Shown here: piece after piece, positions 10,828-19,850 of the stretch
How positions within the stretch are numbered: the first letter of the stretch is position 1
How the letters are laid out: each line of letters begins with the position of its first letter
Assembly: GCF_000384815.1 (NCBI RefSeq)
Contig: NZ_ARQF01000021.1
Coordinates: 930,001-994,000, forward strand
DNA length: 64,000 bases
Reading direction: 5' to 3'
Source: Halodesulfovibrio aestuarii DSM 17919 = ATCC 29578
Lineage (GTDB): Bacteria; Desulfobacterota; Desulfovibrionia; Desulfovibrionales; Desulfovibrionaceae
Made by a program: the position numbers and the translations under genes
Notes under the pieces: generated by a model
Told to the model about the DNA's origin: nothing
Seen by the model: only the letters and a program-made list of their open reading frames with translations
Database searches by the model: none

Positions 10828-11766
10828 ATGAACACCTCTTCTTTGTCTTCAGCATGTTCCTTCAGCGGAGTTGCTTTGGATAGCTGCGGCACACAGCACG
10901 CGCCACACTGCACAGCTCCTCCGGCGCAAAAAGCTGGATCTGCCCAACTCCCTTTTCACCCATGTTTTAATGAAAAAGCACATGGGCGGATCGCCCGCAT
11001 CCATGTACCAATTGCTCCACGCTGTAACTTGGCCTGTGGATACTGCGAACGTGTAATTTCACCTTCTCCAGATCTGACCGGCCCGGGGTCTGCGTCTGAA
11101 GTGCTCTCCCCTGAACAAGGCATTGAAAGAACAATGAAGTTCCTCCAGCAATACGGAGACAAATCTATTGTCGGCATTGCAGGCCCGGGAGACCCGCTGG
11201 CGAATCCGGAAACAATGACATTTCTGGAACAAATGCAAGAAGAAGCTCCCCACATTGCAACCTGCCTGTGCACCAACGGGTTAGCACTGCCTCAATACGC
11301 AGAAAAACTTATCGAACTGAGAATCAACACGCTAACCGTCACTGTTAACGGCGTTACGCCTTCTGTTATTGCACAAATGCAGCCTCGTGTTCTTGATTCC
11401 GGCACTTGGCTCACCGGGGAAGAAGCCGGTCATCTACTTATTTCACGCCAGATGGAAGGGTTACGAAAAGTTGCCGGTCATATGACACTCAAAATCAACA
11501 TGGTTATCGCTCCTGAAATTAATATGAGCGAGGTAGAAGCTGTCATGCAGCTCGCCGTAGACTCCAAGGTGCAGGTATTTAACCCTATGCCTCTGATTCC
11601 ACGACATGCTCTGCGATTTACACGCAAGCCAACCCACGATGAGATAAAACACATTTACTCACTCTGCCCCCCTTCGCTTTCACTCTTCACAAAATGCAAA
11701 CAATGCCGCGCTGATGCGGCAGGAATTCACGGTAAGGAGCACTCCAAATGTCCGACGATCGTTTAG
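10828..11766 (+). CDS. NifB-like radical SAM protein (stand-alone, no nif genes nearby)
   Basis: 312 residues. True NifB fuses two [4Fe-4S] clusters and inserts a SAM-derived carbide to make the NifB-co core of nitrogenase cofactor. All the family's cluster ligands can be seen. HPCFNEKAHGRIARIH carries the N-terminal Cys46. The radical SAM motif CxxxCxxC is at Cys66, Cys70 and Cys73 (APRCNLACGYC). GIAGPGDPLANPE is present, and so is the C-terminal pair Cys290/Cys293 in CKQCRADAAG. There is no NifX tail, so it is a core-only NifB. An unusual Cys-containing 40-residue leader (Cys10, 20, 28) precedes the core. It overlaps the next gene by 19 bases. No nifHDK, E or N is in the window, so the product may serve another protein. 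Some other cofactor-building role in the radical SAM superfamily is possible, but the paired ligands favour NifB. Confidence 0.85.
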   Translation: MNTSSLSSACSFSGVALDSCGTQHAPHCTAPPAQKAGSAQLPFHPCFNEKAHGRIARIHVPIAPRCNLACGYCERVISPSPDLTGPGSASEVLSPEQGIERTMKFLQQYGDKSIVGIAGPGDPLANPETMTFLEQMQEEAPHIATCLCTNGLALPQYAEKLIELRINTLTVTVNGVTPSVIAQMQPRVLDSGTWLTGEEAGHLLISRQMEGLRKVAGHMTLKINMVIAPEINMSEVEAVMQLAVDSKVQVFNPMPLIPRHALRFTRKPTHDEIKHIYSLCPPSLSLFTKCKQCRADAAGIHGKEHSKCPTIV

Positions 11767-12623
11767 TAGTAAATCGCCGAAAATTTTTAACCGCTGGCGG
11801 CACAGCTCTGGCTGCGACTATGGTACCTCGCATCGCAGATGCCGCCGCAACGGTTGCAACCACCTCTCCTTACGAGGGACAGTCTCTTCAAGTATGGTCA
11901 TGTGGTGGACTGGCAGAAGCCTTTATGCCTGCAAATGCCATGTATGAACAGCAAAGCAAAGCAAGTATCAGCTACACAGGCGCCTTTGCAGGTGCACTTG
12001 GTAAATCGCTTCTTGGCAGCGCACAGACAGAAGTATTTGCACCGCGCGTTCTCGGTCTTGCAAAAAAGCTCAAAGCACAAGGCAAAATGCTTGCTTTTCA
12101 GCCACTGTGCTTCACTAAGTATGTGCTCATCACACCAAAAGGAAACCCTGCAGGAATTGAATCGATTCAGGATTTGAAGCGGGATGGCATTAAAACGCTC
12201 TGCTCGCCGGAATCATCTCCTCCGGGCGGTAAAGCTGCCATGGGCGTTCTCAAAAAAAGCGGTGTACTACAAGAGGCAAAAGAAAAATCCATCTACATGG
12301 GTTCCTGTGTACAGCATGATGTTGCCGATATTGCAGCAGGAAAGGCCGATGCGGCAGTTGTGGAACTTCGCATTACTCGTCTTCCACGTTATAAAGATAA
12401 ATTCGACATCATTGAAATTCCGGAAAAGTACTTCCCTGCACCTCCTATCCCATTCAGCATTGGGGTTATGAAGTGGGCGAAAGATCGAGATTTTGCACAT
12501 AATTTTGTATCGTTCATCACATCTGAGGCCGGGCAAGCACACTTTGCGGCTGCCGGATTCATCCCTGCTCTTTCTGAAGAAGGCGAAAGACTGGCCGCAA
12601 AATATGGAGTAGTCGATGCCTAA
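11748..12623 (+). CDS. Tat-exported ModA-like substrate-binding protein with four cysteines
   Basis: 291 residues. The N terminus has a twin-arginine signal, VNRRKFLTAGGTALAA, with likely cleavage after ADA near residue 32. The mature part resembles molybdate/tungstate-type binding proteins: LQVWSCGGLAEAF, YTGAFAGALGKSLLGS, VLITPKGNP, and the hinge segment GKADAAVVELRI. Unusually for this fold, four Cys (52, 121, 152, 187) and His190 are spread through the mature protein. Tat export implies that it folds, perhaps with a cofactor, before crossing the membrane. No ABC permease or ATPase follows, and the partner is instead a NapH-like membrane ferredoxin that starts within its last codons (8-base overlap). 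Ligand unknown: an oxyanion or a metal cluster are both possible. A coupling role with the NifB-like enzyme is inferred from the operon. Confidence 0.8.
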   Translation: MSDDRLVVNRRKFLTAGGTALAATMVPRIADAAATVATTSPYEGQSLQVWSCGGLAEAFMPANAMYEQQSKASISYTGAFAGALGKSLLGSAQTEVFAPRVLGLAKKLKAQGKMLAFQPLCFTKYVLITPKGNPAGIESIQDLKRDGIKTLCSPESSPPGGKAAMGVLKKSGVLQEAKEKSIYMGSCVQHDVADIAAGKADAAVVELRITRLPRYKDKFDIIEIPEKYFPAPPIPFSIGVMKWAKDRDFAHNFVSFITSEAGQAHFAAAGFIPALSEEGERLAAKYGVVDA

Positions 12624-13374
12624 TTCCAGCTCATCAACACTCAGTCGTTTATGGCCTCGAAGAGTAATACAGGCTGTATCATTCTTCATGCTGGCAGAAT
12701 TTTCATACTACGGCATTTTTAGATGCCCCTTTGCAGTGCCGTACGTAAGCTGTGCAAACTGTCCTGTTGTGCAATGTCCGGGGAAAAAACTCTGGTATAT
12801 TGTTCTTGGGGGCATTGCAGTCTCAGCGCTATTTTTTGGTAGAGCTTTTTGCGGGTACGCCTGTCCTGTGGGAACGATTTCCGATCTCTTCAGTTCCGTT
12901 GCGCTTATGAAACGGAAAATTTCTCCAGCTATCAAGACCGTTCTCCAAAAGGGAAAATATATTGTTGCTATCGGTGCCGCATACCTTTTCTTTGCTATGC
13001 AAAACCCACGCTGGGCTGTCCCGATTCGCACCGGTGAATTCATAAATTCCACCATGCTTACGTTTGAACATGCAAGCTGGCTCTGGCTTTCCAGAACGAT
13101 AATAGTCGCTGGAGCCATCGCGCTCGGTCTTGTTATCCCTTACTTCTTTTGCCGGTTCATATGCCCGACAGGTGGAGTGCTTGAATTATTCAGCCGCTTC
13201 TCATTTTTCAAGTATACCATGACATCATCATGTTTTGATTGCGGAAAATGTGACAAAGCCTGCAAGCAGGATACACGTCCCGCGCAAGCAAACTGTACAA
13301 ACTGCGGAGCCTGCAAAGACACCTGCCCCGTAGATGCAATTTCAATAACGCATCCGTTCGATAAAAAAGATTAA
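12616..13374 (+). CDS. NapH/MauN-type membrane ferredoxin
   Basis: 252-residue inner-membrane iron-sulfur protein. About four to five hydrophobic helices are visible. The family signatures GRAFCGYACPVGT (Cys79, Cys83) and CRFICPTGG (Cys179, Cys183) sit at membrane edges. Two ferredoxin [4Fe-4S] motifs follow: CFDCGKCDKAC (206-216) and CTNCGACKDTC (227-237). An extra Cys cluster, SCANCPVVQC (46-54), lies in the first loop. NapH relatives pass electrons from quinol or cytosolic donors to periplasmic enzymes. Here it is the last gene of the three-gene operon, so it probably supplies or removes electrons for the exported ModA-like protein, or reactivates its cofactor. A terminator follows at once. 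Confidence 0.88.
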   Translation: MPNSSSSTLSRLWPRRVIQAVSFFMLAEFSYYGIFRCPFAVPYVSCANCPVVQCPGKKLWYIVLGGIAVSALFFGRAFCGYACPVGTISDLFSSVALMKRKISPAIKTVLQKGKYIVAIGAAYLFFAMQNPRWAVPIRTGEFINSTMLTFEHASWLWLSRTIIVAGAIALGLVIPYFFCRFICPTGGVLELFSRFSFFKYTMTSSCFDCGKCDKACKQDTRPAQANCTNCGACKDTCPVDAISITHPFDKKD

Positions 13375-13395: not shown

Positions 13396-13430
13396 AAAGG
13401 CTTTTGCGATTCTTCGCAAAAGCCTTTTTT
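13396..13430 (+). terminator. Terminator of the NifB-like operon
   Basis: 14-bp perfect stem AAAGGCTTTTGCGA/TCGCAAAAGCCTTT with a 4-base loop, followed by more T. Confidence 0.88.
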
Positions 13431-13963: not shown

Positions 13964-16900
13964 CTAGAATGTCAATGCACACTTAACCATGGCTCCGCGA
14001 TACGTGCTGTGTTCAGAAATATTTCCATTCAAATCAAGCATAAACGTCACAGGCCCTTTTTCAACGGCCATTCCGACCTGCAGATTTCCTGTCACAGGAT
14101 CTGCTATATCTGTTGTAAGTGATATATCATTACTAAAAGACGAATCAACCAGTTTGGCATCTGTTCTAAGGTCGGTTTCACCAAAGGCAAACGTCACACC
14201 TGCATCAATATTCGCATTAAACCGCCAGCCGGAATCCGTATCGAACTTTTTGGTCAAGGTCATACCTAACGGGAGTAGGCAAGTAGACATGTCTGCACTG
14301 TCGACTTTAAAGAGCTTACCATCTGAATTGCTGGAGCTATAGCTGTCTTGTCTGTAGTAGGCATAGTCTAAGCCCATATACGGGGTAAGAATGACAGATT
14401 TGTATTCAATCGGTCGGGAACACTCCAGTCCCACGGAATAGACACTACCGTCAGCATCGCCAGAAAAATCTTGAGAACTGATATCTGACTCCAGATTTAC
14501 ATAGATCAACTCACCTTTAAGCTGAAAATCTTCTGGCAAAATATAGGCTCCATAGACAAGAACGCTGACATAATCATTATTAGTAAAAAAACCTGAGCTG
14601 GCTTTACTGCCGTCTGTATCTGCTTTACCAAAATTGACAGCAGCGCCGAGCAAATATTCTTCACTGGCAGTTTCCGCGCCAATGGCAAGACCATAGATGT
14701 TTGTTGAAAAACTATTTGAAAAGTGCCCTGTTTTTATGCTTTTCACTCTGGAATATTGGTAAAGCGGGGTAACATAAATATCATTCTGCTGTTCCTTCAA
14801 ATCTTTTGCCCGATAAAGCAACGATGAACCGGATGCGGGGATGCGTCGGGAAGTAAGACTTCTACTCGTCTTTGTTATGTCATACGCGATGTGGCCAACG
14901 CCACCAAATCCGGCAAGGTTGGCAGCTTTTTCTACATTATATGCGGCATCAGAATCAGCACTGGTTAACAAAGAGTCCATAAAACGCTCACTGGCAGAGG
15001 TCAGACTCCCCGTCATTCCAGCGATTGTATAGTCGTCAAGGAATTTCGCTGTTGAGCCTTCTGCACCAAACACTGCAGCTGAGCCATATAGTCCTAACGT
15101 TACCGTAAAGGAATGCAATAAACTGCTACTTTCTGGATAAAGAAGAACATTGCGCATATAAATATTACTCAAAGACCAACCACTGGTAAGATTTGGAGCA
15201 AATTCAGCAACCTTAATGGTACCGGGAGCTGCCCGTAAAATTTGTAAATAAGCACCGGGATCGACTGTAAGTCTGGCTGTAGAGGTGGATGTTATTGCAG
15301 CTCCCCCCTCCGGGATTGTTTTTGCATTAATAATAAGTAATGAGTTCGCACCAAAAGTTGCATCTGGATTTGTCGGAGTAGCTGGAGTTGAAGTTAGAGT
15401 CCCATCAACATGTAAACTCGACCCGGCTGTAAGAGTATATGGTTTGCCAATATACAATACCGCTGAAGCCCCACTTGCTCCCCACAGTCCCGTATCATTT
15501 ATTGCTGTAATAGCATCCTGAGAGCTGGAAGTTCCCAAGCTGAGAATGGCATTTTTTCCTGCTACAAGATGTCCATCAATTTGGTTAGAAGTGGCAAAGG
15601 AAGCGATATTAACAATATTTGCATCTTCAGGATGTTCTGCAACTGTTGAAGATGGTAAAGGGCTGCGCAACAGAGGACTACTTAAATTCATATTTATTGT
15701 AGATCCATGCAAACTCAATTTTCCTATTGCCAGCTGACTGCCACTATCTGTATTTTTGTCATTTCTTACTGTAATAATACTATCATTCTGTGCATTCAGT
15801 TCGGAAAGAGTCCACTTGCCATTGCTTACGCGCAAGGTTCCGTTATCCAACTCGACATCGCCAGAAATACTATTTGTAGATGAGCCAGACAAAACAAACT
15901 CGCCTCCCGAGTCGACGTTACACGCTGTTGCTCCATTACTGGTAATAATTGAGCCGCTATGCGTGGCAACTCCACCATGAACCCAAATAGCGGTAGAACT
16001 TGCACCATCTGCTTTAATTGTTCCAGTATTTGTCAATGTGGAGCCCGAATCTTTGACATAGACCCCGACGGCATTTTTCCCAGTTACTATAATGGTACCG
16101 TCATTTGTCACATCACCATTTACCCATGTTCCCAACGTATATGAAAGCGCAGAATTACCTGTATTTGTAAGTGTTGCTCCTTTCTCCAATCGCAACGAGC
16201 TAGAGTCCCCCATTAAAACGACTTGCCCTGTTGTCTTAGATCCATTTAAAAGCGTTACATCCCCAACATTTCCAGCAAAAATTGCGTACGCCTTTGAGGA
16301 TCGTGGAGCTATGGCCTCTATAACGCCACTTGACGTTAACGTTAAATTACCTTTTGTTGGTGTAGCACTTTCGTCGTAAGCATCTATTGCATATACAGTT
16401 GTTGTTGAATCTTCAGCAAACACTGTATCGCCAATGGCTCTAACTGTTCCTGACATGTTTAAAATCGTTAAGTCACCTTCCCGGGCGCATATCCCTTTTA
16501 CAGTAGCAACGGTGCTCGTATTCGATCTGGCACTCGTATTAATTGTTCCATCCAGCTGGTTAATGTTAATATCCCCGTGCCATGTTTCAAGGCCATAAGA
16601 AGTAAGATTTCTAAAGGACGTGGAGCCCTCAAGGGAATTCAGAGTATCTGAATATGCTGTTGCTGTGATAGTTGAAGACGCATCCAAGGTCTCAATGCTA
16701 ATTCCAGTTGCTCCATATATACCAAATGCTGCTATAGCCTCTGATGCAACCCCTGCTGCGTTATGACTTTGTGCAATGGATGTTATATCGCCGAAAATTG
16801 TTCCAAAGGTACCTGTAGTTCTACAATCAATTGCAGAAACATTTGCATCTTTATTTTCCGATGTAGCCCGGGCCTCAATATCCCCTACAAGATTGGTTAG

Positions 16901-17467
16901 CTCTACTATCCCGCTCCTAAGTCCTTTTGCATATGCAGCTTCGTTCCCATTGGATGTTGCGTAAACATTTATATTGAATGAGCTACCAATCAACTTGCTG
17001 GTATAATCCCTTCTCTTCCCCCCAAAGCCCTGCACATAAGTTTGATCAGTACCAGCAGTTTTAGTTCCTGTTGCTGTTACAGTTCCAGTTGCAGTACCGT
17101 CTACTCGAATGGTCACACCGGCAGTGTTATTAAGAATACCACATGCGTTACCATCTGTATTCGTGGCAGTTATGGTGCCGACATTTTCAAATCGCACCTC
17201 TCCTGTCGCAGAATCAACAACAACTGCTACAGGAGAGGTTACACCTTCAAATAAATAACTGTCCTCTTCAGCAGTAATGGATCCTAAGTCATCAAGATGA
17301 TTACCGGCACCAAGCGTAAAATTTGCAATCGTTCCCGCAGTAACAGTAGCGGTCTCCCCCTCCGCTATATCAATATCTGTACCTGCAACAAGAACAAACG
17401 GGCAAAATAAAAGGCTCACACAAAACAAACTGGCACTGGCAAGAAAAAGACCGGCATAGTTTCTCAT
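13964..17467 (-). CDS. Autotransporter (type Va secretion) with beta-helical passenger
   Basis: 1167 residues. A Sec signal (MRNYAGLFLASASLFCVSLL..., cut near VAG) precedes a passenger of about 30-880. The passenger is rich in Thr, Ser, Asn, Gly and Asp and made of short irregular repeats such as GTITATNTDGNACGI and LTNTGTIKADG, typical of a right-handed beta-helix adhesin. The C-terminal 280 residues form the translocator barrel (TPLYQYSRVKSIKTGHFS, aromatic alternation, final residue Phe). No protease triad was recognised in the passenger, so an adhesin is more likely than a SPATE-type protease. GGGGAAG precedes the ATG. The gene is monocistronic, and its 398-base upstream region is AT-rich. 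Confidence 0.92.
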   Translation of the reverse strand: MRNYAGLFLASASLFCVSLLFCPFVLVAGTDIDIAEGETATVTAGTIANFTLGAGNHLDDLGSITAEEDSYLFEGVTSPVAVVVDSATGEVRFENVGTITATNTDGNACGILNNTAGVTIRVDGTATGTVTATGTKTAGTDQTYVQGFGGKRRDYTSKLIGSSFNINVYATSNGNEAAYAKGLRSGIVELTNLVGDIEARATSENKDANVSAIDCRTTGTFGTIFGDITSIAQSHNAAGVASEAIAAFGIYGATGISIETLDASSTITATAYSDTLNSLEGSTSFRNLTSYGLETWHGDININQLDGTINTSARSNTSTVATVKGICAREGDLTILNMSGTVRAIGDTVFAEDSTTTVYAIDAYDESATPTKGNLTLTSSGVIEAIAPRSSKAYAIFAGNVGDVTLLNGSKTTGQVVLMGDSSSLRLEKGATLTNTGNSALSYTLGTWVNGDVTNDGTIIVTGKNAVGVYVKDSGSTLTNTGTIKADGASSTAIWVHGGVATHSGSIITSNGATACNVDSGGEFVLSGSSTNSISGDVELDNGTLRVSNGKWTLSELNAQNDSIITVRNDKNTDSGSQLAIGKLSLHGSTINMNLSSPLLRSPLPSSTVAEHPEDANIVNIASFATSNQIDGHLVAGKNAILSLGTSSSQDAITAINDTGLWGASGASAVLYIGKPYTLTAGSSLHVDGTLTSTPATPTNPDATFGANSLLIINAKTIPEGGAAITSTSTARLTVDPGAYLQILRAAPGTIKVAEFAPNLTSGWSLSNIYMRNVLLYPESSSLLHSFTVTLGLYGSAAVFGAEGSTAKFLDDYTIAGMTGSLTSASERFMDSLLTSADSDAAYNVEKAANLAGFGGVGHIAYDITKTSRSLTSRRIPASGSSLLYRAKDLKEQQNDIYVTPLYQYSRVKSIKTGHFSNSFSTNIYGLAIGAETASEEYLLGAAVNFGKADTDGSKASSGFFTNNDYVSVLVYGAYILPEDFQLKGELIYVNLESDISSQDFSGDADGSVYSVGLECSRPIEYKSVILTPYMGLDYAYYRQDSYSSSNSDGKLFKVDSADMSTCLLPLGMTLTKKFDTDSGWRFNANIDAGVTFAFGETDLRTDAKLVDSSFSNDISLTTDIADPVTGNLQVGMAVEKGPVTFMLDLNGNISEHSTYRGAMVKCALTF

Positions 17468-17865: not shown

Positions 17866-18501
17866 TCAACTCTCATCTATAACTACTCCCTGCCTCTGTA
17901 TCTCGTACCAGATGAAAGGGGCATAGCGTGCAATCTGTGCATTTGTGAGAGCATCTTCGCGGGTTCTGTCTTTGTATCGTGCATAGTACTCCGCACGTTC
18001 TGCGTCATAGACTTCTTTATCCAACCCAAGTGCATCCAGAATTTCATAGGCTTTCTCTTCCTGCTCCGGAGTCAGGTCTTCGGAAACGGCAATCATTCCG
18101 GTTTCCAGCATTAGCTCAAAAGGATAGAAATCCAAATCGTACGGACACGTCAGCGGTTCCTGTCCTCTGGTAGAGTTTACGCGCCTGTCAGCAAGAAGAT
18201 AATTCTTCCACTCGTACGCCATCCATGCATCCTGTGCTTTGGGAATAAAATGCTCCACACTGCCTTCACGGTTTCCTGTTCCATCAATATCCGGATCGAG
18301 GTACACAGCAAGGTACGCGCAAATGTCATTATAGCTTTTATGAAGCATCGGTAATGCCCTGCTCCAATATCTTCTCCAAGCAAAATTTGCAGGCGGCGGA
18401 TCCCCCTGTTTCACATGATGACGCTTTAAAAATCTTCTGCCCGGCTGTCGTACTTTTTTATTGAACTTGGAAGGCTCCGGAGCACGAGTCACTGGAATCA
18501 T
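17866..18501 (-). CDS. HNH endonuclease of a Septu-like pair (PtuB-like)
   Basis: 211 residues. The core VEHFIPKAQDAWMAYEWKNY followed by LLADRRVNSTRG matches the HNH nuclease layout of PtuB-type effectors: His84, Asn100 and Asn109. In PtuB relatives a CxxC pair before the first His and a second CxxC before the Asn hold a structural zinc. Here only Cys61 remains (CAYLAV) and the second pair is replaced by ADRR, so this is a zinc-less variant. The gene starts 4 bases inside the end of the AAA ATPase gene (ATGA overlap), the fixed gene order of Septu systems. The likely role is DNA cleavage triggered by the ATPase partner upon phage infection. This is inferred from family and context, not proven. 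Confidence 0.75.
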   Translation of the reverse strand: MIPVTRAPEPSKFNKKVRQPGRRFLKRHHVKQGDPPPANFAWRRYWSRALPMLHKSYNDICAYLAVYLDPDIDGTGNREGSVEHFIPKAQDAWMAYEWKNYLLADRRVNSTRGQEPLTCPYDLDFYPFELMLETGMIAVSEDLTPEQEEKAYEILDALGLDKEVYDAERAEYYARYKDRTREDALTNAQIARYAPFIWYEIQRQGVVIDES

Positions 18502-19850
18502 AAATTCCAGCCCCGTTTTTCTGCACGGGTACGCCAGAATGACCAGAACGGATCGGCCTGATGCAGCGCAGCGACCAATTTTTTATGAATAACTTGTGCT
18601 TCTGCTTCACTCACACGATTACGCACAGCAAGCTTGGCTTCTTTTATCGCCTCTTCACGCTGCTCTGAAGAGTCCGTTTCCAACCCGAATACCGGGCTTG
18701 TGAGCCATGCTGCAGAAGACCCGCGCCTTACCCACTCTTCTTTTTTAAGTTCAACGTCAGACGTTTCTTTGTTCAGATCAAATGTGTATAGCACGTCTCG
18801 GGTTTCATCAAAAATGGGATCCAACGACGCCAGAACCAACGGAGAATGTGTAGTGCAAATAAGCTGTGTGGAAACATCGTGCCCTGTAAGCAGACTGCCC
18901 ATTACTGACTCAAGCGATTTCAAAATACTGCGCTGCCACTGAGGATGCAGGTGTGCCTCTACTTCATCAACCATAAGAATAATTTTCGAAGCAGCTCCCA
19001 TTTTAAATTTATCGCATAACTCAATATGTTCATGCCATGCCCATGTCAGAGCATACAAAAGAGAGAGAATCTTGCGAATGCCTGCAGAAGCGTAAATAAG
19101 AGGCGTTTCTTTGCCATACTCTGTTTTAATAGTAGGGAATTTACGGCTGTCGTCTGCCTTAACCCTACGCAATCTGCCTATGGAAAAAGCCTCACCCTTT
19201 GGGGATAAATGATGCACTCCCCTTTTCAAACAGGCGTAGGCAAAGCTATCCTCCCGCTGCCAGTCGCCCCAGTCTGAAATAAGACCGTTAAATTCTTGCC
19301 GGTGGCGCTTTTGAACACCATCCCACAGCTCAGTCTGAGAATAGATGCGGGTAGTCTGATGTCGCATTGAACTTGTTACATGATCATAGTGATGCGCCCG
19401 TTCGTGAATAAATGCGCGTGCAAATTCATCTGCCTGCGCCTTAACAGGATCATACATAGCCACGGTTCCATCACATTTCATGTACAGCACAATAGAATCA
19501 CTTGGGGAATTGGCTTCAATAATTCTCTCCTCACTCTGAGAATTACAGTTCCATACCTGTCCCAACCGCTGAAAAACATACTGTTGAATTGAATCCATTC
19601 TATTTATGGAATCAAGTCGACCTCGGATAACCGAATCCGGCTGTTCCCTGCCTTCATACGCATTTGTAATAAAAGATTCGGGCATGGCCATCTCGCCTGC
19701 CCACTCTTTTGTAAGCATCCACCATGCAACATCAAGAACAAAACTCTTTCCAAGGCCGTTGTCACCCGTGAAAACGGTGAGTCTATCCCCGAACTCTATT
19801 TCAAGATGTTCAGAGGGCCCCACGTTATTAAGCTCAAGAGTTTTGATCAT
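18498..19850 (-). CDS. AAA/ABC-type ATPase of a Septu-like pair (PtuA-like)
   Basis: 450-residue SMC/ABC-like ATPase of the AAA_15/AAA_21 group. Walker A is GDNGLGKS (29-36), following the typical N terminus IKTLELNNVGPSEHLEIEFG. A signature-like segment ASAGIRKILSLLYAL lies near 254-268. Walker B is IILMVDEVEAHLHPQW (Asp295, Glu296) and the switch His is in TTHSPLVLAS (335). There is no Toprim domain, unlike OLD nucleases, so cleavage must come from the overlapping HNH gene. The C-terminal 90 residues (acidic, then Ala/Lys helices) are specific. In Septu, PtuA forms a multimer that holds PtuB. The gene is flanked by unrelated genes with no other defence gene within the window. Confidence 0.8.
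   Translation of the reverse strand: MIKTLELNNVGPSEHLEIEFGDRLTVFTGDNGLGKSFVLDVAWWMLTKEWAGEMAMPESFITNAYEGREQPDSVIRGRLDSINRMDSIQQYVFQRLGQVWNCNSQSEERIIEANSPSDSIVLYMKCDGTVAMYDPVKAQADEFARAFIHERAHHYDHVTSSMRHQTTRIYSQTELWDGVQKRHRQEFNGLISDWGDWQREDSFAYACLKRGVHHLSPKGEAFSIGRLRRVKADDSRKFPTIKTEYGKETPLIYASAGIRKILSLLYALTWAWHEHIELCDKFKMGAASKIILMVDEVEAHLHPQWQRSILKSLESVMGSLLTGHDVSTQLICTTHSPLVLASLDPIFDETRDVLYTFDLNKETSDVELKKEEWVRRGSSAAWLTSPVFGLETDSSEQREEAIKEAKLAVRNRVSEAEAQVIHKKLVAALHQADPFWSFWRTRAEKRGWNL

Follow-up and report, generated by a model that had tools for sequence, protein, structure and literature searches.

A candidate NifB-dependent module of a Tat-exported ModA-fold protein and a NapH-like membrane ferredoxin

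The DNA analysed here is a 64,000-nt stretch of Halodesulfovibrio aestuarii contig NZ_ARQF01000021.1 (the window, whose positions are used throughout), and our subject is a three-gene operon within it. Its genes encode a NifB-like radical S-adenosylmethionine (SAM) protein, a ModA-fold protein with a twin-arginine translocation (Tat) signal (gene 2, hereafter SBP) and a NapH-like membrane ferredoxin (gene 3). A preliminary description, made from the sequence alone, had the genes overlapping by 19 bases (genes 1 and 2) and 8 bases (genes 2 and 3), and the open reading frame (ORF) coordinates agree:

10828..11766, + strand: NifB-like radical SAM protein, 312 aa, single-domain, with no NifX domain; member of clade op5 (defined below)
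11748..12623, + strand: Tat-exported ModA-fold protein (SBP; SBP_bac_11), 291 aa; proposed carrier of a NifB-made cluster
12616..13374, + strand: NapH-like membrane ferredoxin, 252 aa, with 16 invariant cysteines

As the same description had it, no nitrogenase or ATP-binding cassette (ABC) transporter genes surround the operon: none were seen by eye among the ORFs at 6-20 kb of the window, the remainder of which was left unchecked. The nitrogenase-fold profile PF00148 matched none of the operon's proteins. Elsewhere on the same contig of this 3.55 Mb genome, at 499.8-507.5 kb, lie four PF00148 genes and a 431-aa NifB that exceeds the curated cut-off; we call these host genes nif-type on their PF00148 and TIGR01290 scores only, not on nifH or single nifD/K/E/N models. 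This NifB is about 440 kb from the operon, so the window copy is the host's second NifB. Those genes rule out the candidate reading that it is the only one, and of the situation that the preliminary description had named as fatal to its proposal, a host with nifHDK and no other NifB, the first half agrees with the host's nif-type genes and the second does not hold.

The SBP was taken as the query for recurrence, with a profile (A1) built from nine SBPs of the window's family and run against 395 genomes from its phylum and 247 from its family, one genome per species. Among the phylum genomes 16 matched, spread over 14 genera and with 13 of them not belonging to the window's family; among the family genomes 45 did. 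Three genomes are common to both samples, giving 58 SBP-positive genomes and 58 loci. Scores ranged from 348.8 to 526 bits and nothing further appeared at E<=1e-30, so the family looks discrete. The distribution thus described is that of the window's phylum, plus two wider searches: a tblastn search for the SBP in 72,556 plasmid records gave no match, and a pattern scan of genome contigs with the window NifB, which detects close patterns only, gave one archaeal NifB (locus L008).

Comparison of neighbourhoods (57 fetched loci, with the window as the 58th) revealed a NapH-like gene 3' of the SBP gene, on the same strand and overlapping it, in 58/58 loci, mostly by 8 bases. A NifB gene belongs to the operon in 31 of the 58, in two arrangements: 3' of the NapH-like gene (op3, 22 loci) or 5' of the SBP gene (op5, the window's type, nine loci, one of them decayed). 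Other gene clusters occur in no more than 17 of the 58 loci, the commonest being ABC ATPases (by eye) at varying positions. Thus the expected recurrence of the neighbourhood holds for the SBP-NapH core in all 58 genomes and for the full trio in 31 only; the invariant unit is not the trio, as had been supposed, but SBP plus the NapH-like protein, with NifB optional and absent from 27/58 loci. In four loci of genus g3 (L043, L044, L046, L111) an ABC importer (NMT1-like binding protein, permease and ATPase, by eye) lies directly downstream of SBP-NapH-NifB, and it might point to a substrate.

Within the window's phylum the module depends on NifB at the level of the genome. NifB is detected at E<=1e-20 in 58/58 SBP-positive genomes; in the phylum sample it is found (E<=1e-40) in 110 of 395 genomes and in 16/16 of those with SBP (Fisher p 5.7e-10, uncorrected for phylogeny). 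Nitrogenase-fold genes are a different matter. PF00148 matched 51 of the 58 SBP-positive genomes at E<=1e-10 and had no match in seven, namely G165 (one contig, 99% complete), G181, G402, G400, G445, G393 and G624 (79% complete); the preliminary description had asked whether the neighbourhood occurs in species without nifHDK, and it does recur in these genomes without a detected nitrogenase-fold gene. Three more (G158, G328, G482) have remote PF00148 homologues only, seven scanned ORFs falling far under the NCBIfam nifD/K/E/N cut-offs while one of the PF00148 ORFs of G482 lay outside that scan. Throughout these ten genomes an intact operonic NifB is the sole NifB found. The other 48 have high-scoring PF00148 genes (best E <=2.7e-122); the operonic NifB is intact in 20 of them, decayed in one and absent from 27. 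Besides PF00148 genes, each of these 27 genomes has a NifB at another place that exceeds the curated cut-off (the match in G439 has an internal stop). The resulting trade-off, operonic NifB in 10/10 nif-free genomes versus 21/48 of the rest, gives a Fisher p of 0.001, uncorrected, which is overstated since the phylogeny-controlled test described below rests on five pairs.

These distributions bear on whether the module is a nitrogenase accessory, sensing or handling molybdate or recycling cofactor and travelling with nif. The 48 genomes with high-scoring PF00148 genes suit such a role, as does genus g6, where the fetched stretch includes a second ModA-like gene in 8/10 loci and a whole or part NifB in 6/10, so that the SBP-NapH pair is near nif there. 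We nevertheless consider it very unlikely: seven of the 58 SBP-positive genomes have no PF00148 match and three more only remote homologues, the module is missing from 94 of the 110 NifB-positive genomes of the phylum sample, and the nif-free genomes speak against an accessory role unless the operons there are dead. PF00148 is present in 94/94 NifB-positive genomes that lack SBP, compared with 12/16 of those that have it (p 0.0003, uncorrected); thus, in this sample, NifB without a detected nitrogenase-fold gene occurs only where the module occurs. The module looks like a second client of NifB.

Orphan NifB genes without SBP were considered as a separate category and rejected, as 20/20 chosen SBP-negative genomes, mostly with short or low-scoring NifBs, and the other 74/74 carry PF00148. 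We note two peculiar groups: (i) Six genomes of family f87 (G410, G431, G451, G489, G525, G560) combine short, low-scoring NifBs with several divergent PF00148 genes, which may encode nitrogenase-like enzymes served by a NifB of their own. (ii) G158 has four adjacent, very divergent PF00148 matches at C22:7027-12161 (L162, L165-L167) with little or no NCBIfam match; the sole NifB found in this genome is the one in the SBP operon.

The operonic NifB of the window scores 218.7 bits against the NifB equivalog model TIGR01290, below the curated cut-off of 343.65, and its solved relatives at E<=0.001 are only four (7jmb, 7bi7, 7jma, 6y1x), three of them named NifB and 6y1x likewise termed NifB in PMC9692996. 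The sites that matter for its chemistry are:

11023..11046, + strand: radical-SAM motif CxxxCxxC (C66, C70, C73), present in the window NifB
11047..11088, + strand: altered gating loop SPSPDLTGPG, replacing CVNESRPG of NifB (alignment)
11695..11706, + strand: C290 and C293 (in CxxCRADA), equivalents of the K2-side ligands; ligand assignment from PMC9692996

The K-cluster ligands listed in PMC9692996 are an N-terminal Cys, the His and Cys of K1 and the CxxC of K2, and alignment shows all of them kept in the window NifB as C46, H59, C146, C290 and C293. The same source describes a gating loop in which a Cys (C62) caps the radical-SAM iron and a Glu (E65) ligates K1, the Cys being counted as a K1 ligand in PMC7145814. 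The window NifB is without this loop, C62 and E65 included, and so the earlier statement that all family cluster ligands are present stands for the radical-SAM and K-cluster residues and falls for the gating-loop Cys and Glu. The gating Cys is also missing from the archaeal NifB of L008.

The two operonic types differ here. In 22/22 op3 copies the gating loop is kept, Cys and Glu included, and a Cys at the gating position is found in 0/9 op5 loci, the decayed one included; three of these (L095, L098, L106) have a Cys at another place in the loop. The 8/8 intact op5 copies share an extra Cys two residues past the K1 ligand Cys (C148 in the window). Radical-SAM cysteines and K-cluster ligands are retained in all 30 intact operonic NifBs; the gaps at ligand columns of the 33-row alignment are what the decayed L042 and the nif-type NifB of L131, truncated where that locus ends, would be expected to leave. 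The op3 NifB of G165 passes the TIGR01290 cut-off (360.2 versus 343.65 bits). In trees, op5 is one clade (support 99 with 56 rows, 100/99 with 47 rows), with the caveat that the program warns of long branches meeting between op5 and the archaeal outgroup. The op3 copies form nearly a single group, 21 of 22 rows at 98 in the 56-row tree and one side in 63% of bootstraps in the 47-row tree, while the sampled nif-type NifBs fall into two groups apart from both. The window copy thus sits in a clade of its own apart from the nif-type NifBs sampled, and the split in the trees together with the flanking side indicates that the SBP-NapH pair is joined by two NifB groups at two positions.

Loss of the loop raises the possibility that the operonic NifB builds a different complex Fe-S cluster for the SBP, for example one lacking carbide or of other geometry, the rest of the system being as we propose below. 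The absence of the gating Cys throughout op5, the window's copy among them, the Cys two past the K1 ligand in its eight intact copies, and a window score well under the TIGR01290 cut-off would all agree with this. Yet 27 SBP-NapH pairs without an operonic NifB coexist with a NifB over the cut-off, which suggests that the standard product is enough, and the radical-SAM and K-cluster ligands persist in the 30 intact operonic copies; we judge a different cluster quite unlikely. The only NifB found in G328 and G482 is of the op5 type, and on this sequence evidence the loop-less form therefore probably works alone.

A further possibility is that the linkage is accidental or historical, with NifB a leftover next to an exported binding protein of the ordinary kind. 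Its best case is G155, whose op5 NifB (L042, 8000-8536, - strand) has decayed, with about 100 residues lost including the K1 Cys and two more cluster cysteines replaced. Even there the SBP and NapH-like genes beside it are intact, by contrast, and another NifB over the cut-off is encoded elsewhere in the genome. Since, moreover, two NifB groups occupy the two sides of the pair and an intact operonic NifB is the sole NifB found in ten genomes, we find mere chance linkage scarcely credible. About 20 family genomes, among the matches listed, also have a distant second NifB-like gene (26-34% to the window NifB) some 4-5 kb from a NifB, for example G173:C2:413933-414739, G076:C2:233166-233828 and G194:C1:1628850-1629446.

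The SBP has the Tat signal and ModA likeness attributed to it at the outset, with a SBP_bac_11 match of 144.6 bits and these residues:

11775..11780, + strand: R10-R11, the Tat signal's twin arginines, invariant in 58/58
11901..11903, + strand: C52, invariant in 58/58; at the end of strand 1, ahead of helix 53-70 in the model
12108..12110, + strand: C121, invariant in 58/58; within strand 114-122
12306..12308, + strand: C187, invariant in 58/58; just ahead of helix 188-196 and one residue before the presumed position of ModA V152

Together with the two arginines, F13 of the signal is invariant in 58/58 SBPs; a fourth cysteine of the window protein, C152, occurs in 5/58. An AlphaFold2 model, built from alignment/profile A4 with 43 of the 58 sequences, has a mean predicted local distance difference test score (pLDDT) of 87.5 and the type II binding-protein fold. 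Its best structural matches are ModA proteins (4kd5, template-modelling (TM) score 0.84-0.88 on target), and the sequence scores 38.9 bits against the ModA model TIGR01256, below the cut-off of 62.5. In the profile alignment to 4kd5, G54 pairs with the Ser of the AAASL loop and V188 with a Val; we take this Ser and Val to correspond to Ser12 and Val152, which bind molybdate in E. coli ModA. From the places of the cysteines in the model and this alignment to ligand residues, C52, C121 and C187 should line the cleft, one per lobe and one near the hinge. The host's three other ModA-like proteins have neither a Tat motif nor, at the three aligned columns, a cysteine; each is followed by a permease-size ORF (called by size, not by profile).

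The third protein is the NapH-like membrane ferredoxin that had been predicted, with two CxxxCP and two 4Fe-4S ferredoxin motifs, the hallmarks of NapH, and a weakly supported four-helix topology. Its scores against NapH models are low, 51.7 bits for TIGR02163 (cut-off 213.05) and 46.5 bits for PRK09477 (cut-off 234). All 58 NapH-like proteins share 16 invariant cysteines, made up by these motifs and one further site:

12724..12777, + strand: extra CX8CX2CX4C motif (C37, C46, C49, C54), in the loop after the first transmembrane helix; weakly predicted outside

Charge counts are compatible with an N-in, four-helix topology that places the extra motif outside, with a weak hydropathy signal, and this four-cysteine site probably faces outward. 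No napG or napA partners were seen by eye among the ORFs at 6-20 kb of the window, with no profile search made for them.

This cysteine content prompts another arrangement, in which the NifB product goes to the NapH-like protein and the SBP is a substrate-binding or docking subunit, its cysteines being used for a soft metal or a sulfur compound or as a disulfide switch. The retained ModA fold would suit a binding subunit, and eight of the 16 invariant cysteines are beyond the needs of two ferredoxin clusters. Against it stands the Tat signal, invariant in 58/58 SBPs, since an ordinary binding protein has no need of folded export. Nor does CxxxCP by itself call for NifB, as the motif occurs also in NapH, NosR and RdhC (PMC5928378). 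On balance we regard this arrangement as unlikely.

We incline, with slightly better than even confidence, to a NifB-dependent module in which the NifB product is placed in the ModA-fold SBP, exported by Tat and engaged in redox chemistry with the NapH-like partner. NifB, operonic in the window and nif-type elsewhere, would make the [8Fe-9S-C] L-cluster or a close relative; the SBP would take up this product in the cytoplasm through its cleft cysteines; Tat would export the folded, loaded protein; and the SBP would then act as a redox metalloprotein on the outer face of the membrane. The NapH-like protein may give or withdraw electrons by way of its two ferredoxin clusters, two CxxxCP motifs and extra four-cysteine site, serving the SBP as NapH and NosR serve other exported metalloenzymes. 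Such a scheme of loading, export and redox service agrees with the invariance of the Tat signal and cysteines and with what the relatives do: NapH and NosR are reported to help pass electrons to periplasmic nitrate reductase and to NosZ, and a like role is proposed for RdhC (PMC5928378). Within this one phylum the analysis shows the gene order, the family with its invariant residues, the presence of NifB in all SBP-positive genomes and the occurrence of the module in genomes without detected nitrogenase-fold genes; the identity of the cluster, how it reaches the SBP, the path of the electrons and any reductase role we infer. More specifically, the SBP could be a periplasmic reductase that carries an L-cluster on a ModA fold, needs no ATP and is fed by the NapH-like protein, which would put a nitrogenase-type cluster to work beyond both the cytoplasm and the nitrogenase superfamily, in some bacteria with no nitrogenase; this idea is tentative and in our estimate falls somewhat short of even.

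Several observations weigh against the NifB-dependent module. Operonic NifB is missing from 27/58 loci. In the window's host, with its PF00148 genes and nif-type NifB, the operonic copy comes second and could be superfluous or do something different. The op5 NifBs are without the usual gating loop, and their product might differ. On the SBP tree only five supported independent pairs speak to the trade-off between nitrogenase genes and operonic NifB; on average 3.2 of them go as expected, 0.0 go the other way and 1.8 show no difference (median p 0.25).

Published L-cluster sites offer some precedent for ligation by cysteines. L-clusters in the activation complex of methyl-coenzyme M reductase (MCR) have His-His, Cys-Cys or Cys-His ligation, one being held by two Cys with a third Cys as a possible bridge (PMC12176620), and methylthio-alkane reductase holds its L-cluster by Cys-His, the carbide being modelled, not resolved (PMC12552129). 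An earlier abstract called NifB and NifB-co unique to diazotrophs (PMC5601070). The NifB product is familiar from nitrogenases and the proteins that assemble them; clusters of this kind are lately also reported from methylthio-alkane reductase and the MCR activation complex (PMC12552129, PMC12176620). NifB is essential in methanogens lacking nitrogenase (PMC12176620), so a use of NifB apart from nitrogenase is by itself no novelty. No prior description of the trio of NifB, SBP and NapH-like protein was found in the open literature, judged by titles and abstract starts, with most subscription papers outside that scope. As far as that literature shows, an exported ModA-fold client of NifB in bacteria would be new, and the evidence points to an undescribed use of a NifB-made metal cluster outside the cytoplasm. 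If this is true, a protein can carry the cluster with it through a membrane, nitrogenase research gains a small two-protein system in which to study it, and NifB genes in bacteria without nitrogenase are explained. The question of substrate would be directly testable, since NifB and NifEN with bound L-cluster are reported to reduce N2 without ATP (PMC13245594).

One terminator-like site follows the operon:

13396..13427, strand not assigned: terminator-like hairpin 3' of the operon, 14 pairs; listed for the - strand, with a T-run on the + strand too

The whole scan gave five such sites versus 3.7 expected in shuffles, and the promoter scan gave three sites versus 3.9 in shuffles, no excess. 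Downstream, on the - strand, lie a protein of 1167 aa, autotransporter-like by eye, whose start is signal-like and whose middle is repetitive (13964-17467), and a Septu-type antiphage pair (17866-19850) with AAA ATPase PtuA at 417.8 bits and its partner PtuB at 163.8 bits (PADLOC).

Set against known systems, the window NifB shares with NifB its sequence family, radical-SAM cysteines and K-cluster ligands, NifBs being its sole solved relatives at E<=0.001; it differs in being unlinked to nif, in lacking a NifX domain and the C62/E65 gating loop, in the Cys two past C146 and in its separate clade. The SBP has the fold of ModA (TM score to 4kd5 given above), whereas its Tat signal, three invariant cysteines, sub-cut-off TIGR01256 score and lack of adjoining transporter genes by eye in the window set it apart. 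The MCR activation complex (McrC, Mmp7) is cytoplasmic. It resembles the proposed module in having L-clusters in a non-nitrogenase complex, with NifB as their probable source and Cys-only ligation known, and differs in being archaeal and ATP-driven, with proteins unrelated to the SBP or the NapH-like protein (PMC12176620). Methylthio-alkane reductase and other nitrogenase-like enzymes provide a case of [8Fe-9S-C] modelled in a non-nitrogenase enzyme (PMC12552129), but they have a nitrogenase-like fold and a P-cluster, while the SBP-NapH module is present also in genomes without detected PF00148. NapH, NosR and RdhC share with the NapH-like protein a membrane part with two CxxxCP motifs, joined in NapH and NosR by two 4Fe-4S motifs; these two work for exported metalloenzymes, and the same is proposed for RdhC (PMC5928378). 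From all three the NapH-like protein is distinguished by its extra CX8CX2CX4C motif, its ModA-fold partner gene and scores far below the NapH cut-offs.

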